From positions 1-64,000 of the forward strand of contig NZ_KB898923.1 in NCBI RefSeq assembly GCF_000377945.1: a DNA stretch of 64,000 bases, given 5' to 3'. Both the position numbers and the translations under genes were made by a program. The DNA comes from Thioalkalivibrio sulfidiphilus (GTDB lineage: Bacteria > Pseudomonadota > Gammaproteobacteria > Ectothiorhodospirales > Ectothiorhodospiraceae). Numbering within the stretch: position 1 is the stretch's first letter; each line of letters begins with the position of its first letter. Below the pieces are notes generated by a model that searched no databases, was not told where the DNA came from, and was given only the letters and a program-made list of their open reading frames with translations. Of the stretch, positions 29,780-62,814 are shown piece after piece.

Positions 29780-29782
29780 ATC

Positions 29783-29966
29783 AGTGGCTAGTGGCAAGTC
29801 TCAAGTGGCAAGGGAGACCACCCTCACCCCAACCCTCTATTCCGGGCGTCCTGCCCTCCACCCTTCGGGCCAGCCTGGCGGCTGTTCAAATCCGCTCCCG
29901 GCGGATTTGTCCCTGAGGGAGAGGGGGTTAAACTTTTTGATCTTCCTTGCCACTTGAGACTTGCCA
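29783..29966. repeat. nested palindromes: GTGGCAAG family enclosing two other repeat words
   Basis: Outer arms CAGTGGCTAGTGGCAAGTC (from ~29784) and GACTTGCCACTAGCCACTG (to ~29975) enclose an inner CCCTCACCCCAACCCTC...GAGGGAGAGGGGG pair. A third word, GGACAAATCCGCCGGGAGCGG on the minus strand (~29890-29918), also occurs at the start of the 21681 gene. The right outer arm overlaps the end of moaC and gives its stop codon. Confidence 0.8.
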
Positions 29967-30452
29967 CTAGCCACTGCCTTTCAAATCCCACGTACCCGAC
30001 TTGCCGCCGGACTTGTGCACCAGGCGCACGCCGCCCATGGTCATGAACCGGTCCACCGCCTTGCACATGTCGTAGACCGTCAGCAGGGCCACCTGCACGG
30101 CGGTCAGCGCCTCCATCTCCACGCCGGTCTGGCCGCGGGTCTCGGCGGTGACGCGACAGTGCACCGAGGGGGGCGAATCCGCCGTGGAGAGCTCCACCTC
30201 CACGTGGGTCAGGGAGATGGGGTGGCACAGGGGCACCAGCTCGGAGGTCTTCTTGGAGGCCATGATGCCGGCCACCCGGGCGATACCCAGCACGTCCCCC
30301 TTCTTGTGGGTCCCGGAACGGATCAGGGCCAGGGTCTCCGGCTCCATGGTGATGTGGCCCTCGGCGACGGCCACCCGGTGGGTGACGGACTTGTCGCCCA
30401 CGTCCACCATGTGGGCCTCGCCCTTGGCGTTGAAGTGGGTCAGCGTGCTCAT
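29967..30452 (-). CDS. moaC: cyclic pyranopterin monophosphate synthase MoaC
   Basis: 161 residues with the family's [34 protein letters not shown] and [20 protein letters not shown], including catalytic Lys and His residues. MoaC works with MoaA to turn GTP into cPMP in molybdenum cofactor synthesis. The last residues before the stop (KGSG) and the TAG itself come from the adjacent GTGGCTAGTGG repeat. It is divergent from moaD and moaE, with 54 bases between the starts. moaA is not in the window. Confidence 0.97.
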
Positions 30453-30506: not shown

Positions 30507-30740
30507 ATGTCCATCACCGTGCGTTACTTTGCCAGCCTGCGCGAGCGCGTCGGCCGCGCCGAGGATCAACTGGATGCCGACGGCAACGACACCGCCGGCG
30601 GCATCTGGGCCCGGGCCGTGCCCGAGCAAGCCATGCCCGACCGGGTGCTGATCGCCATCAACCAGGAATACGCCGATGCGGATCACCCGGTGCGCGACGG
30701 CGACGAGGTGGCCTTCTTCCCACCGGTCACGGGCGGCTGA
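30507..30740 (+). CDS. moaD: molybdopterin synthase sulfur carrier MoaD
   Basis: 77 residues, ubiquitin-like: SITVRYFASLRERVGRAEDQ at the start, DGDEVAFFPPVTGG at the end. The C-terminal Gly-Gly is adenylated and thiolated to carry the dithiolene sulfur. moaE starts one base after its stop codon. A TATACT word at 30459-30464 lies in the divergent promoter region with moaC. Confidence 0.95.
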   Translation: MSITVRYFASLRERVGRAEDQLDADGNDTAGGIWARAVPEQAMPDRVLIAINQEYADADHPVRDGDEVAFFPPVTGG

Positions 30741-30741
30741 G

Positions 30742-31176
30742 ATGAGCGTCTCGCTACACCCCGAACCCTTCGACCCCTGGGCCCGCCTGGCGGCCCACCA
30801 GGCCCAGCTGCCCGCCGGCAGCTTCGGCGCCACCGCCGTGTTCGTGGGCACCATGCGGGATTTCAACGAGGGCGACGACGTGCGCGGCATGACCCTGGAG
30901 CACTATCCGGGCATGACCGAGAAGCACCTGGAAGGCATCGTCGCCGAGGCCCGCAGCCGCTGGCCCCTGGACGACTGCCTGATCGCCCACCGGGTCGGCC
31001 CCATCGAGCCGGGCGATCCCATCGTGCTCACCGCCGTCTGGTCCGCGCACCGCAAGGCCGCCTTCGAGGCCTGCCGTTACCTGATGGAAGAGCTCAAGCA
31101 CCGCGCCCCGTTCTGGAAGCGCGAGACCCTCAAGGACGGGCAGGTGCGCTGGGTGGAGAAGAACACGGAAGGGTGA
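30742..31176 (+). CDS. moaE: molybdopterin synthase catalytic subunit MoaE
   Basis: 144 residues from ATG 30742. FGATAVFVGTMRDFNEGDDV, LEHYPGMTEKHLEGI, the HRxGxxxxGD site (HRVGPIEPGDP) and YLMEELKHRAPFWKRE with the two catalytic lysines are all present. MoaE and MoaD together convert cPMP to molybdopterin. Longer frames upstream lie inside moaD. The gene is followed directly by a repeat cluster. Confidence 0.97.
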   Translation: MSVSLHPEPFDPWARLAAHQAQLPAGSFGATAVFVGTMRDFNEGDDVRGMTLEHYPGMTEKHLEGIVAEARSRWPLDDCLIAHRVGPIEPGDPIVLTAVWSAHRKAAFEACRYLMEELKHRAPFWKRETLKDGQVRWVEKNTEG

Positions 31177-31182
31177 AAATCA

Positions 31183-31420
31183 AGTGGGAAGTTGGAATTG
31201 GGAAGTGCGAAGTTAACCCGAATGTTTCATGAATTCGCGCGATGATCGCGCAGGATATTGGCCGCACAGGGGATTTTCCGAGGGAGCGCCGTATCGGGCT
31301 ATACGGCCGACTGAGGAAAATCCCCTGTGCGGACAAGAGACAAGCGAGGGCGTGCGCAATTCATGAAACATTCGGGTTAAGGGTCTTTCAATTCCGACTT
31401 CCCAATTCACACTTCCGACT
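31183..31420. repeat. GGGAAGT palindrome with an inserted 168-bp element
   Basis: Outer words GGGAAGTTGGAATTGGGAAGT (31188-31208) and ACTTCCCAATTCACACTTCC (~31398-31417) form one palindrome of the AATTGGGAAGT family. Its loop is occupied by the separate 168-bp element at 31213-31380, so one palindrome has inserted into another. Confidence 0.75.
31213..31380. repeat. 168-bp MITE-like element with triple nested inverted repeats
   Basis: Perfect 23-bp terminal inverted repeats (31213-31235 against 31358-31380; outer end TTAACCCGAATG). Inside is a perfect 18-bp pair, CCGCACAGGGGATTTTCC (31262-31279) with 31315-31332. At the centre is GCCGTAT (31288-31294) with ATACGGC (31301-31307). No coding capacity. 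It fits a non-autonomous mobile element or a structured RNA. Confidence 0.85.
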
Positions 31421-31424
31421 TCCC

Positions 31425-32807
31425 TCATTGCAGTATCAGAAAGAACGCCCCCTCGTCCCGCCGGATGTTCAGCAGCAAGCGCTGGCCATTGCTGCCCACG
31501 GCGCGGCGCATCTCCTCCAGATTGCTCACCGGCTGACGGTTGACCGACAGGATCACATCCCCCTCCCGAAGACCCGCGCGCGCGGCGGGACTGCCGCTTT
31601 GCACACCGGTCACCAGGACCCCCTGCACGCGGCCGTGCAGGGGCGAGGCCTCGGTGATGTCGCTGAAACTCGCACCCTCCAGGCGACGGCTGAACTGCGC
31701 GCCCTCGGTGGTGGCGGCGCGGATCTCCGCCACCACGGCGGTGAGGGTGCGGCGGCGGTTGTCGCGCACCACCTCCAGCTTCACCTCGCTGCCCACCCGC
31801 AGCAGGCCGATGGCATTGCGCAGCTCCGTGGCATTGCGCACCCGGCGCTCGTTGACCCGCAGCACCACGTCGCCCTCCTTGAGCCCGGCGCGCTCGGCGG
31901 CGGAACCGGGCTCCACCTGGGCGATCACCGCGCCCTGGGTCTGGGAGATGCCGAAGGCCTGGGCCAGCTCCGGAGTCAGATCCTGCACCGTCACACCCAG
32001 GCGGCCGCGCCGCACCTCGCCGTGCGCCACCAGGTGCTCCTTGACCTGCAGGGCCATGTTCACGGGGATGGCAAAGCCGATGCCGATATTGCCGCCCGCC
32101 GGGGTCAGAATGGCGGTATTGATGCCCACCAGCTCGCCGCGCAGGTTCACCAGGGCGCCGCCGGAGTTGCCGGGGTTAATGGAGGCGTCCGTCTGGATGA
32201 AGTCCTCGTAGGACTCGATGCCGAGACCGCTGCGCCCCAGGGCGCTCACGATCCCGGAGGTCACCGTCTGACCCAGACCGAAGGGGTTGCCGATGGCCAC
32301 CACGAAATCGCCCACCCGCAGGGCGTCGGAATCGGCCACCTTCACCGCGGTGAGGCTGTCACCCTGCACCTTGAGTACCGCCAGGTCCGTGGCCGGGTCG
32401 GTGCCCACCACCTCGGCGTCCAGACGCCGGCCGTCGTGCAGGGTGACCACGATCTCGTCGGCCCGCTGGATGACGTGGAAGTTGGTGATGATGTAGCCCT
32501 GCTCCGCGTCCAGGATCACGCCGGAGCCAAGTCCCTGGGTCTGGCGCTCACGGGGCTGCTGGGGCAGGTCGAAGAAGCGCCGGAAGAAGGGGTCCTCCAT
32601 GAGCGGATTGCGCTCCACCACGCGCCCGCGGGTAGCGATGTTCACCACCGCGGGGATGGTACGATCCAGCATGGGGGCGAGCGAAGGCAGTGGCTCGCCG
32701 TCCACCTCCACCGGCAGGGTGGCCGAGGCCATGGGCGCCATGGCCAGCAGCAGGAGGCAGAGGAAAACGGTCAGGGTGTTTCGAAGTTTGAAATGCACGT
32801 GATACAT
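31425..32807 (-). CDS. degP: HtrA/DegP-type periplasmic serine protease
   Basis: 460 residues. A signal peptide (FLCLLLLAMAPMASA) is followed by the trypsin-like domain with His in TNFHVI, Asp in TDLAVL and Ser in GNSGGALV, and two PDZ domains (~270-350; ~375-460). Do-family proteases degrade or refold damaged envelope proteins; they could equally be called MucD or DegQ. It is monocistronic here. The repeat cluster ends within a few bases of its stop codon. Confidence 0.93.
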   Translation of the reverse strand: MYHVHFKLRNTLTVFLCLLLLAMAPMASATLPVEVDGEPLPSLAPMLDRTIPAVVNIATRGRVVERNPLMEDPFFRRFFDLPQQPRERQTQGLGSGVILDAEQGYIITNFHVIQRADEIVVTLHDGRRLDAEVVGTDPATDLAVLKVQGDSLTAVKVADSDALRVGDFVVAIGNPFGLGQTVTSGIVSALGRSGLGIESYEDFIQTDASINPGNSGGALVNLRGELVGINTAILTPAGGNIGIGFAIPVNMALQVKEHLVAHGEVRRGRLGVTVQDLTPELAQAFGISQTQGAVIAQVEPGSAAERAGLKEGDVVLRVNERRVRNATELRNAIGLLRVGSEVKLEVVRDNRRRTLTAVVAEIRAATTEGAQFSRRLEGASFSDITEASPLHGRVQGVLVTGVQSGSPAARAGLREGDVILSVNRQPVSNLEEMRRAVGSNGQRLLLNIRRDEGAFFLILQ

Positions 32808-33741: not shown

Positions 33742-35247
33742 ATGTCCGCCACCGAAAGCTTCAGCCTCCACAACCTGCACCGCCACGGCGATCTCATCAT
33801 GGTCGCCGTGTGCTGGTTCCTGCTGGCACTCGCCCTGGCCCTGGCCGGATGGCACAGCACCTGGACCGCGGCCCTGGTCATCGGACTGCCCGCCGCCCTG
33901 GTGCCCACCGCCCTGCTGTGGCTGACCCCGGGCAGCCTGCTCAACCGCCTGGTCAACGCCACGGCGCTGATGGTGTTCTCGGCGCTGATCATTCACCAGA
34001 GCCGGGGCATGATCGAGATGCACTTCGCCATCTTCGTGCTACTGGCCTTCCTGCTCTACTACCGTGACTGGCTGCCCCTGGTGACCGCGGCGGCGGTGAT
34101 CGCCGTGCACCACCTGGCCTTCAACTGGATGCAGGAGGCAAACCTGGGCGTGTACATATTCGAATGGCGCACCGGCCTGGACATCGTGTTCATCCACGCA
34201 GGATTCGTGGTGTTCGAGACCGCCCTGCTGGTGTACATGGCGGTGCTGCTCAGACGCGAGGCGGTGCAGTCGGAGGAACTGCACCTGATGGGTGGACACA
34301 TGCGTGTGGATAACGGCATGGTCGACCTGACCTTCCGCAACCCGGCGGCACGCAGTCCGCTGGCCCGTGGGCTGAACGACTACGTGGCGGCCCTGCACGA
34401 CGCCATCCGCCTGACCCGCTCCAGCAGCCACGAACTTTCCGAGACCGCCCAGGGCCTGGCCCAGGCGGCGGAGCGCACGGACCGGGCCGCCCGGGACCAG
34501 CAGGCCGAGACCCAGCAGATCGCCTCGGCCGTCACCGAGATGGAGGCCAGCGCACGGGAAGTGGCGCACAACGCCCAGGAGGCCGCCGCCGCCACCCGCG
34601 AGGCGGACACGCAGGCCCGCTCAGGCCGCGAGGAGATCGAGCGCACCGTGGCGGTGATCAACGAACTGGCGCGCCAGGTGGAGACCTCGGCCCGGGTGAT
34701 CGACCAACTGGAACAGCAGAGCGACAAGGTGGGCGGCGTGCTGGAGGTGATCCAGTCCATCGCCGAGCAGACCAACCTGCTGGCGCTGAACGCCGCCATC
34801 GAGGCCGCGCGCGCCGGTGAACAGGGCCGGGGTTTCGCAGTGGTGGCCGACGAGGTGCGCACCCTGGCCTCGCGCACCCAGGATTCCACGCAGGAGATCC
34901 GCGCCATCATAGAGCAGCTCCAGGGTGGCGCACAGCAGGCCGCCCAGACCAGTCGGCAGGCCCGCGACCAGGCGGAACAGGGGGTCACGCGCATCGGTCA
35001 GGCGGGTCAGGCCCTGCGCGCCATCGCCGACGCCATCGGCCACATCAACGACATGAACATGCAGATCGCCAGCGCCGCCCAGCAGCAGACCCGGGTCACC
35101 GAGGCGATCGCCGAGAACGTCAATCAGGTGAGCGAGGCCTCTCTGAGCGCCGCGAACCAGGCCGCCGAGAGCCGTCGCGCCGTGGAACTCCTGCTGGGCC
35201 TGAGCCGGGAACTGGAAAAACGCATGGGGCAGTTCAAGACTGAGTAA
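33742..35247 (+). CDS. methyl-accepting chemotaxis protein with multi-helix membrane domain
   Basis: 501 residues behind GGAGAGACCC. The first ~180 residues hold about six membrane helices ([37 protein letters not shown] and others) with no large periplasmic sensor and no clear HAMP. The cytoplasmic signalling domain has the hairpin tip [20 protein letters not shown] and [10 protein letters not shown]. It should signal to CheA/CheW on a membrane or intracellular cue. Its stop codon merges into the following repeat. No che genes are nearby. Confidence 0.92.
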
Positions 35248-35325
35248 TTCAAAATTCAAGATTCAAAATTCAAAGGAGATTCGCGTCCAGGTTCCCTTTG
35301 AATTTTGAATCTTGAATTTTGAATC
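35246..35325. repeat. AATTCAAAATTCAAGATTC palindrome
   Basis: Left arm AATTCAAAATTCAAGATTC and on to AAAATTCAAAGG; right arm CCTTTGAATTTTGAATC and on to TTGAATTTTGAATC. The same element recurs at 52218-52294. It lies between the convergent chemoreceptor and cbpA genes. Confidence 0.85.
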
Positions 35326-41080: not shown

Positions 41081-41150
41081 GTAGGTCGGCCTTCAGGCCG
41101 ACGAACCAGGCTCCGATGAACAGCGGCGTCGGCCTGAAGGCCGACCTGCG
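41081..41150. repeat. GTAGGTCGGCCTTCAGGCCGAC palindrome pair
   Basis: GGTCGGCCTTCAGGCCGAC (41083-41102) and GTCGGCCTGAAGGCCGACC (41128-41146) are inverted copies of each other, each itself palindromic. The word is widespread in gammaproteobacterial intergenic regions. Confidence 0.85.
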
Positions 41151-51305: not shown

Positions 51306-52283
51306 GTGACAGACCCCGACCGCGCCAGCCCCCTGTGGCTGGTGGACTCCAGCATCTACGTGTTCCGCGCCTGGTTCACCCTGCCCGAGGCCATCACCGA
51401 CCGTGAGGGCCACCCGGCCAATGCGGTGACCGGTTTCGGCGAGTTCCTGGTGCGCCTGCTCACCCGGGCCGCGCCGGCGCCGGTGGTGTTCGCCTTCGAC
51501 GAAAGCCTCGGCCAGTCCTACCGTCACGAGATCTACCCCGAATACAAGGCCAACCGCCCGCCGGCCCCGGAATCCCTCAAGCGCCAGTTCCGCCAGTGCC
51601 GCGCCCTGGTCACTGCCCTGGGCTTTCCCGCCTTCTCCAGCCCCCGCTACGAGGCCGACGACATCATCGGCACCCTGACCGCCCGTCAGCAGGCCGCGGG
51701 CGGCAGCGTGCACCTGATCACCGCCGACAAGGACCTGACCCAGCTGGTGGGCCCCGGCGACCTGTGGTGGGAATTCCAGCAGGACCGGCGCCTGGACGCC
51801 CGGGGCGTGGAGAAGAAGCTGGGCGTGCGCCCGGAGCAGGTGGCCGATCAGCTGGCCCTGGCCGGCGACAAGGTGGACAACATCCCCGGCGTGCCCGGCA
51901 TCGGCATGGCCACCGCCGCGCGCATCCTGCGCCGGTTCGGCGACCTGGACACGCTGTTTGCCGATACCGATGCAGTGGCGAAACTGCACATCCGCGGCGC
52001 CAGGCGCCTGGCGGACCTGATCGCCGAACACGAGCACAGCGTGCGCCTCTCGCGCCGGCTCACCGGCATCCACTGCGACATCGAAGACCTGCCGCAAGAC
52101 CTGGACCTCACCCCCGCCGCCCCGGACCGCGCGGCCCTGACCGCGCTCCTGGATCAGCTCGGCATCGACGGCCCGCGCCGGGTACGTTGGGAAGCGCTGA
52201 TCGACCGGCTGGAAGACAATTCAAGATTCAAAATTCAAAATTCAAAGAAACACGACTCCACCCCTTTGAATTTTGAATCTTGA
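51306..52283 (+). CDS. 5'-3' exonuclease (FEN/ExoIX-like)
   Basis: 325 residues from GTG 51306. LVDSSIYVFRAWFTLPEAIT, FAFDESLGQSYRHEIYPEYK, YEADDIIGTLT, LITADKDLTQLV and the HhH GDKVDNIPGVPGIG match the stand-alone homologues of the Pol I 5' nuclease domain. It should process flaps and primer ends. The last ~18 residues (FKIQNSKKHDSTPLNFES) and the stop codon are encoded by the AATTCAAAATTC repeat, so the native tail was lost. Confidence 0.9.
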   Translation: MTDPDRASPLWLVDSSIYVFRAWFTLPEAITDREGHPANAVTGFGEFLVRLLTRAAPAPVVFAFDESLGQSYRHEIYPEYKANRPPAPESLKRQFRQCRALVTALGFPAFSSPRYEADDIIGTLTARQQAAGGSVHLITADKDLTQLVGPGDLWWEFQQDRRLDARGVEKKLGVRPEQVADQLALAGDKVDNIPGVPGIGMATAARILRRFGDLDTLFADTDAVAKLHIRGARRLADLIAEHEHSVRLSRRLTGIHCDIEDLPQDLDLTPAAPDRAALTALLDQLGIDGPRRVRWEALIDRLEDNSRFKIQNSKKHDSTPLNFES

Positions 52284-52294
52284 ATTTTGAATCC
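52218..52294. repeat. AATTCAAAATTC palindrome, second copy
   Basis: AATTCAAGATTCAAAATTC on the left, then TTTGAATTTTGAATCTTGAA and TTTTGAATCC on the right. It matches 35246-35325. It lies across the end of the exonuclease gene and reaches to two bases before the cobW start codon at 52296. Confidence 0.88.
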
Positions 52295-61932: not shown

Positions 61933-62814
61933 TTAAGTGCGGTCCGGCTTGCGCTGTTCGAGGCCGAGGTACAGGGCGGAGTAGTCTTCCTCCCCGTGCC
62001 CTGTGGCCATGACCCGTTCCAGGTTCTCCCGCACCGGCGCCAGCAGGCCCGCGTCCACGCCCGCCTCCCGGGCGGCGAGGGCCACCAGGTTCACGTCCTT
62101 GAGCATGTGCTTCACGGGGAAGTTGGGGTTGGAGAAATCCGCCTTGAGCATGCGTTCCAGCTTCTTGTCGAAGGTGGGCGCATAGAGGGCGCTCTCGCGC
62201 AGCATGTCCATGAACAGATCCACGGAGACCCCTTCGCGGCGGATCAGGGCGAGGCTCAGGGAGAAGGCGGTGGTGAGGCTGGCGATCAGCTGGTTGAAGG
62301 CGAGCTTGAGCGCCGCCGCCTGGCCCACCCCGCCCACGTGCACCGGATTCGGACCGAAGGCGGTGAACACGTCTCGCCATTGCTCGAACGCCTCGGCCGA
62401 GTCCGCACCCACCATGACCAGCAGATTCGAGGCCCTGGCCTCCGGAATGCTGCCCAGCACCGGCGCCTCCAGGTACTCGCCGCCCGCCTCGACCACCGCA
62501 TCGCGCACGGAACGGCTTTCGTGGGGGGCGATGGTGCCCATCTGGATCACCGTACGCCCGGCGAGCGCTGCGCGTGACGCGTCGGACAACAGGCTCGCCT
62601 CGATGGCCGCCCGGTCGCTGAGCATGAGCACCACCACCTCGGCCTCGGCCAGCACCCGGGCTGGTGCATCGCACCACGACGCGCCCGCCTCCAGCAGCGG
62701 CTGCGCCCGTTCACGGGTGCGGTTGTAGACCCGCAGTTCGTGCCCCGCACGCAGCAGCGCCTCGCCCATGGGCACCCCCATCAGCCCCGTGCCCAGCAGT
62801 CCGACCTTTGACAT
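61933..62814 (-). CDS. 3-hydroxyisobutyrate-dehydrogenase-family oxidoreductase
   Basis: 293 residues. NAD(P)-binding GLLGTGLMGVPMGEALLRAG, the substrate loop VLGSIPEARASNLLVMVGA and the catalytic Lys of ALKLAFNQLIASLTTAFSL. The family includes 3-hydroxyisobutyrate, tartronate semialdehyde and glyoxylate/succinic-semialdehyde reductases; the exact substrate cannot be told. Single gene. Confidence 0.9.
   Translation of the reverse strand: MSKVGLLGTGLMGVPMGEALLRAGHELRVYNRTRERAQPLLEAGASWCDAPARVLAEAEVVVLMLSDRAAIEASLLSDASRAALAGRTVIQMGTIAPHESRSVRDAVVEAGGEYLEAPVLGSIPEARASNLLVMVGADSAEAFEQWRDVFTAFGPNPVHVGGVGQAAALKLAFNQLIASLTTAFSLSLALIRREGVSVDLFMDMLRESALYAPTFDKKLERMLKADFSNPNFPVKHMLKDVNLVALAAREAGVDAGLLAPVRENLERVMATGHGEEDYSALYLGLEQRKPDRT

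Follow-up and report, generated by a model that had tools for sequence, protein, structure and literature searches.

The locus lies in a stretch of 64,000 nucleotides from contig NZ_KB898923.1 of Thioalkalivibrio sulfidiphilus, hereafter called the window. Two convergent genes enclose a MITE that sits inside a separate palindromic repeat. The second gene encodes Trypsin_2 and PDZ domains and is presumably of the HtrA/Deg type. The features of the locus are as follows.

30676..31176, plus strand: upstream gene with a MoaE domain, reading towards the element; its true start may lie inside the open reading frame
31182..31212, plus strand: GGAAGT palindrome, left arm; this repeat is a family of its own and was the insertion target (the arm as reported extends to 31216 and takes in the TTAA duplication)
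31213..31216, no strand: left copy of the target duplication TTAA, 4 bp, from the sequence and the flanks of copies
31217..31376, plus strand (the orientation used for the core): MITE of 160 bp, defined by its ends and copies
31217..31235, plus strand: left terminal inverted repeat CCCGAATGTTTCATGAATT, 19 bp, from an inverted-repeat search
31236..31356, plus strand: conserved structured core of about 121 bp, matched by covariance model R1 with 147 bits, the window core being one of the 28 training sequences of this model
31241..31257, plus strand: basal internal loop, 5' side, GATGATCGCGCAGGATA; holds the 5' half of a 3-pair helix
31262..31279, plus strand: main helix, 5' arm, perfect over 18 bp; 22 nt at 95% from 31258
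31280..31287, plus strand: apical internal loop, 5' side, GAGGGAGC; GAnGGAGC in the family
31288..31307, plus strand: apical hairpin GCCGTAT-loop-ATACGGC with a 7-bp stem, from a palindrome search
31308..31314, plus strand: apical internal loop, 3' side, CGACTGA
31315..31332, plus strand: main helix, 3' arm, from the inverted-repeat search
31337..31349, plus strand: basal internal loop, 3' side, GAGACAAGCGAGG; holds the other half of the 3-pair helix
31358..31376, minus strand: right terminal inverted repeat, 19 bp, from the inverted-repeat search
31377..31380, no strand: right copy of the target duplication TTAA, 4 bp, from the sequence and the flanks of copies
31387..31421, minus strand: GGAAGT palindrome, right arm
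31425..32807, minus strand: convergent gene with Trypsin_2 and PDZ domains, from a domain search

A sequence-only reading of this DNA had described three nested perfect inverted repeats at 31213-31380, and arms of 23, 18 and 7 bp were indeed all found. The inverted repeats are real, but the proposed extent of 168 bp has to be narrowed. The perfect 23-bp arms (31213-31235 and 31358-31380) are composed of the 19-bp ends and the TTAA target duplication. Since the outermost TTAA of each arm is duplicated target, and not part of the ends as had been assumed, the element proper comprises 31217-31376 and has ends of 19 bp. The perfect 18-bp arms are located at 31262-31279 and 31315-31332. A MITE of 160 bp is too short to hold a transposase gene, although mechanically called open reading frames cross it. 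Folding of positions 31150-31430 (281 nt) gave -154.1 kcal/mol compared to -86.1 (sd 4.9) in 200 dinucleotide shuffles (z -13.85). Perfect 18-nt arms at most 200 nt apart form 48 18-mer pairs in the window and none in 20 mononucleotide shuffles of the whole window; as reckoned from the arm lengths, seven of the 48 fall in the element. Perfect arms of at least 15 bp exist at no fewer than 10 other places in the window, and together with the 48 pairs this indicates that long palindromes are common in this genome. Other long perfect palindromes in the window were found at 29782-29976, 35247-35324, 41083-41147 and 52218-52286 (arms of 32, 30, 21 and 22 bp); they apparently belong to different repeat families.

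The element had further been placed in the loop of a AATTGGGAAGT palindrome. This was borne out, since congeners that lack the element do have the palindrome, but the arms (35 nt, 31182-31216 and 31387-31421) are imperfect, with 80% complementarity. We rejected the idea that the outer palindrome is part of the element on three grounds. The printed flanks of the other copies in the same genome have no such palindrome, the GGAAGT repeat has 279 matches in this genome (up to 2 mismatches) compared to 21 for the reversed pattern, and at the empty sites of the congeners G001 and G002 the palindrome is present with a short loop. The MITE is inserted into a GGAAGT palindrome, a separate and abundant repeat. 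Pieces of the GGAAGT repeat recur in four congeners, and in one place it forms a tandem 7-bp array (C4:39659-39790).

A search for further copies, which the reading had proposed, yielded 12 matching places in the own genome (G000; 3.05 Mb, 69 contigs) and more in other genomes; the element is not, as the reading had allowed for, without another copy in any genome. Eight of the 12 places, the window copy included, are 97-100% identical to the query and cover 163 or more of its 168 bases, and two more match near the whole query at 92% and 87%. The remaining ones are truncated by a contig end in one case and interrupted by an insert in the other. Since C34 and C54 share a flank, and C45 stops where C17 starts inside the element, the 12 places correspond to about 10 separate copies. 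These copies have TTAA or CTAG as target duplication, and one has TTAG. The suggestion that the element has the ends of a MITE is supported by further copies that share the ends and are flanked by target duplications, and by the gap between the MoaE and HtrA genes, which is devoid of the element in the two congeners G001 and G002. G004 carries the element at the same MoaE-HtrA position (98% identity over an 801-bp query). In one copy (L030, G000:C12:48977-49142) the apical part looks inverted relative to the other copies, as recombination between the stem arms would produce. A second MITE-like element of 176 bp with CCCGCATATCTCACCA ends is located about 260 bp from a copy of the element studied here (L111:1071-1246; G000:C1, about 62578-62753). 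It is flanked by CTAG and CCAA, and its CCCGCATATCTCACCA ends resemble those of a decayed IS1380 element of G088.

How far does this family extend? Searching with the element DNA gave matches in 14 of 96 genomes, and the end pattern was found in 14 of 369 genomes of the class, the own genome included in both cases. We built a covariance model (R1) from an alignment of 28 core sequences. In the class Gammaproteobacteria this model found 38 of 369 genomes, the own one included, in 30 of 272 sampled genera. Eight of the 38 positive genomes had contributed to the training (G000, G055, G067, G071, G103, G214, G321 and G401), and the other 30 had not been used. Because no more than nine candidates per genome were scored, under strict filters, the numbers of copies and of positive genomes are minimum estimates. 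A broader covariance model (R2, 37 sequences) was used on a draw of the phylum Pseudomonadota and found 43 of 398 genomes, or 42 of 397 without G000. All 42 lie outside the class, none was in the training set and most belong to one family (f207); the rest of the 398-genome draw includes members of the class. The 29 printed loci of these R2 matches mostly show CC[CT]-type ends and YTA-like flanks, with a few ends cut or degenerate. Named hosts of the end motif include Thioalkalivibrio denitrificans (L010), Thiobacillus denitrificans, Hydrogenovibrio halophilus, a Halothiobacillus MAG and two Desulfobacteraceae MAGs; the loci L011 and L018 likewise aligned as core carriers.

The window element had no match at E up to 0.01 in 72,556 plasmid records or in 50,697 phage records, and two divergent relatives had none at E up to 0.001 in the plasmid records. 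In viral contigs, a single element end was found in one contig. The core pattern matched 99 viral contigs, of which five passed a loose second-motif filter and none of these five looked element-like by eye. Searches of open-licence PMC papers on the end and core motifs, on MITEs together with IS1380 and on MITEs of Thioalkalivibrio brought up no description of the family. The element belongs to a widespread and seemingly undescribed MITE family.

In order to compare whole elements, 178 model matches were reduced to 163 separate places and 156 unique cores of 113-126 nt, leaving out cores with larger inserts. A script that looks for CCC..GGG ends near the core, and that would miss lengths outside roughly 145-175 bp, recognized ends for 116 of the 156 cores and none for the other 40. 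Within this range, the 116 elements are close to uniform in length: 63 have 160 bp, 28 have 159 bp, 19 have 161 bp and six others range from 158 to 163 bp. YTAR is found on both sides of 74 of the 116 MITEs, compared to a background of 0.5%. An identical 4-bp duplication flanks 66 of them (31 CTAG, 21 TTAA) and is absent in 50. The end types include CCCGAATGTTTC, CCCGCATTTCTC and CCCGGAAAGTCC, and the same core is located behind each. Other lengths that we found are 461, 273, 243, 196 and 46-56 bp. The longest two (L009:5682-6142 and L017:6090-6362), from Thiobacillus denitrificans and a MAG labelled Rhizobium, have a core that is split or trailed by extra sequence. A different MITE-like element of 245 bp with similar ends is present twice in L013 (286-530 and 1971-2215), where the two copies flank a stretch with a 475-codon open frame. 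The shortest forms, of 46-56 bp, contain hardly anything besides the ends and have TTAA on both sides (L124:1504-1559 and L134:1504-1549 in G067, L119:1504-1558 in G294). Their existence means that the core is perhaps dispensable for movement; these forms may be later deletions or a sign of such dispensability.

The core is one long interrupted hairpin of about 121 nt with two conserved internal loops. Compensatory changes were found in 23 of the 28 predicted pairs of alignment A2 and in 33 of the 37 pairs of the broader alignment A5. In A5, 91.3% of the cells pair, compared to 72.9% in shuffles that ignore relatedness. Cells changed on both sides number 242, compared to 68.3 in these shuffles and at most 62 in partner-slid controls, over which the structure is favoured because it was predicted from the same alignment. 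None of the five measures was reached by any of 500 shuffles. Covariation thus shows pairing beyond chance, in RNA or in DNA. The unpaired columns are as conserved as the paired ones (mean information 1.05 and 1.01 bits), and CGACTGA on the 3' side of the apical loop has the highest mean of the seven core segments measured (1.32 bits). In Rfam 15 no family reached its gathering score on the window element or in 20 loci; at E up to 10 there were three hits, all far below their own gathering scores.

Wobble pairs allow a comparison of the two strands. The helices for this test were picked by Watson-Crick pairing alone, which is neutral to strand. We counted 462 G-T cells and 122 A-C cells, or 124 and 53 after down-weighting of similar sequences. 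By parsimony, 206-212 changes led from a pair to G-T and 98-101 from a pair to A-C, while 117-127 went directly from pair to pair. Among 27 host groups, 25 favour G-T, one favours A-C and one is tied. As RNA, the plus strand is also the more stably folded one, in 152 of 156 sequences and in 26 of 27 groups. A strict subset of 24 pairs, counted by sequence cluster, gave nine for, three against and five ties, which is not significant (p 0.15). The element ends, intended as a negative control, were biased as well (16 groups for, four against, five ties; 70 and 19 cells), and this leaves two options, a constraint on the whole strand or a mutation bias. DNA folding parameters favour the plus strand too (16 of 17 clusters), hence RNA and single-stranded DNA are not separated by this test. 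One strand of the element is special, but RNA is not proven. The sequence-only reading had offered a long cruciform or an RNA structure; covariation and the bias of wobble pairs to one strand strengthen the latter and stop short of proving RNA. A strand-linked mutation bias, for instance from transcription of the plus strand, would fit these data too.

Could the core be passive nonetheless? It might be the old interior of a MITE in which template switching or gene conversion between the arms (quasi-palindrome correction) preserves their complementarity, with no selection for a function. Every copy is a long DNA palindrome, the apex of L030 looks as arm recombination would leave it, end-only forms exist and neighbouring genes show no bias in orientation. 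However, correction of the arms alone would not favour G-T over A-C on one strand, as 25 of the 27 host groups do. Moreover, unpaired columns, with CGACTGA at their head, are as conserved as paired ones, and the length of the element is nearly constant. We consider a passive core unlikely, although it is an explanation to be taken seriously.

A role of the core in the transcripts of host genes, as a 3'-end, stability or insulation element, was judged against the gene neighbourhood. ERIC and Correia elements are reported in such roles (PMC10969869), and the strong plus-strand fold and the position of the window copy between convergent genes would agree with them. Insertions lie close to genes (median distances of 39 and 37.5 bp with a simple ORF caller that allows short overlaps). 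After leaving out 12 sites at contig edges, both neighbours were called at 150 insertion sites. Of these, 39 are convergent, 32 divergent and 79 tandem, the latter with the plus strand of the element along the genes in 35 cases and against them in 44, and these counts reveal no preference in orientation. Such random orientation speaks against a function in host transcripts, and so does the window copy itself, in which no terminator-like site was seen; positions 31150-31450 showed no sigma-70-like promoter either. We therefore regard a host-transcript role as improbable and infer that the core acts in the life of the element itself rather than in host genes.

With respect to the enzyme that moves the element, the reading had proposed a full-size parent with TTAACCCGAATG ends. 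No exact match to such a parent was found; the nearest are insertion sequences of the IS1380 family with CCCG ends and CTAG duplication. Neither the own genome nor the other genomes searched yielded a transposase gene with exactly the ends of the window element. Using PF13701 we searched 43 genomes, the 37 core-bearing ones and six relatives, mostly as draft assemblies, and obtained matches in 15, of which 12 were over the cut-off; accordingly, 28 of these genomes lack a match altogether and 31 lack one above the cut-off. The scan for ends covered 18 loci and yielded only four separate elements that combine CCCG ends with a CTAG duplication:

L170, 1570 bp, in G401
L182, in G401
L171, 1748 bp, in G330
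L054, decayed, in G088

The transposases of L170 and L171 belong to the IS1380 family (NCBIfam NF033539, 403 and 393 bits, cut-off 180), and the ends of these two elements, next to their CTAG duplications, are CCCGGATATTTCAC and CCCGCATTTCTCAC. The MITEs share 15 of 16 end positions with the resident IS1380 element in G401 and 16 of 16 in G330. MITEs of G351 match the G401 element equally well (15/16), and those of G098 and G224 match the G330 element (16/16), while in G067 the MITE ends agree with the resident IS1380 element at only 11 of 16 positions. Because near-identical ends and CTAG duplications accompany the MITEs in two genomes, IS1380 transposases are the likely movers. The own genome holds two parts of an IS1380-family element at contig ends (L071 at the end of G000:C28 and L059 at the start of C5), possibly a collapsed repeat, with CCCAGATTGTCCATTAG ends of the CCATTAG type. 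In the 18 loci with transposase matches, several of which are fragmentary, model R1 located no core within a transposase element; its sole match there (L182:1-95) is in a flank outside the element. There is thus no clear sign that the core arose from these insertion sequences by deletion.

A mover other than IS1380, such as an enzyme acting on a hairpin of single-stranded DNA, would be in line with the strand bias, which recalls single-strand mechanisms, and with the lack of a PF13701 match in most core-bearing genomes. The inverted ends, the YTAR duplications and the IS1380 elements of two core-bearing genomes, whose ends fit the resident MITEs, point the other way, and we hold a different mover to be very unlikely. 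The MITE is non-autonomous and, judged from ends and target sites, is probably moved by IS1380-family transposases. These enzymes would recognize the 19-bp CCCG ends in trans, excise the MITE and insert it at YTAR (TTAA, CTAG or TTAG) with duplication of 4 bp. The fold of one strand of the core, as RNA or as single-stranded DNA, would help the element itself, and the core would be retained for this reason. We have good confidence in this account as a whole, namely a MITE mobilized by IS1380 with a folded core that is kept for the benefit of the element. On this account, a large number of intergenic repeats would depend on IS1380 transposases.

A more far-reaching version is possible, although we put it forward only tentatively and would not rely on it. 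Here, the MITE would carry a structured RNA so far undescribed, or a strand-specific single-stranded DNA, which has spread widely in Pseudomonadota. The whole plus strand including the ends would fold as one molecule on which the element depends for its spread, and the module would have moved between several IS1380-type sets of ends. The interior of MITEs is usually taken for filler. In this family, an interior of 121 nt keeps its shape by compensatory changes across many host families and behind different ends, and it was found in none of the presumed parents. The core is consequently a testable case of function inside a MITE, with natural variants that could help to separate RNA, single-stranded DNA and transposase binding.

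Among known systems, ERIC (127 bp, Enterobacterales) resembles the element in being a short intergenic palindrome with inverted ends and an interrupted hairpin. This resemblance was followed with covariance models in both directions and one profile, which left homology unsupported. That the element belongs to ERIC, which would then occur in other bacteria as well, is scarcely credible: the sequences share AGGAGC-hairpin-GTGACT and a nearby AGCGA motif, and R2 with its filters off places the ERIC locus as top match in a 2-kb stretch, but with only 6.3 bits (E 0.66), while R1 ranks it fifth (3.1 bits, E 3.2), default filters leave no match in two loci for R1 and in ten for R2, an ERIC model (R3, 10 sequences) recovered one of its own training loci and none of 47 element-bearing sources, and a full-length profile, run without a positive control, gave no ERIC match. 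ERIC differs from the element in ends and length, and there is no homology at the sensitivity of the three covariance models.

The IS1380 family (NF033539, PF13701) is similar to the MITE in its CCCG ends and in the 4-bp CTAG duplication, as seen in the elements of G401, G330 and G088. In contrast, the MITE has no transposase, and its structured core was not found in the autonomous elements examined. Insertion contexts of IS1380 are treated in PMC9208149. The eukaryotic piggyBac superfamily, for which IS1380 transposases serve as outgroup and TTAA with variant targets is listed in PMC10813416, shares targets of the TTAA/CTAA/TTAG type and ends starting with CCC; this likeness concerns targets and ends only. 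Chunjie and other classical bacterial MITEs, as reviewed in PMC10969869, are likewise small, with inverted ends, target duplications and many copies. According to the same review, full-length copies of Chunjie have 178-235 bp, whereas the members of the family described here are mostly 159-161 bp long. What sets this family apart from the classical MITEs is a covarying core that is common to several types of ends.
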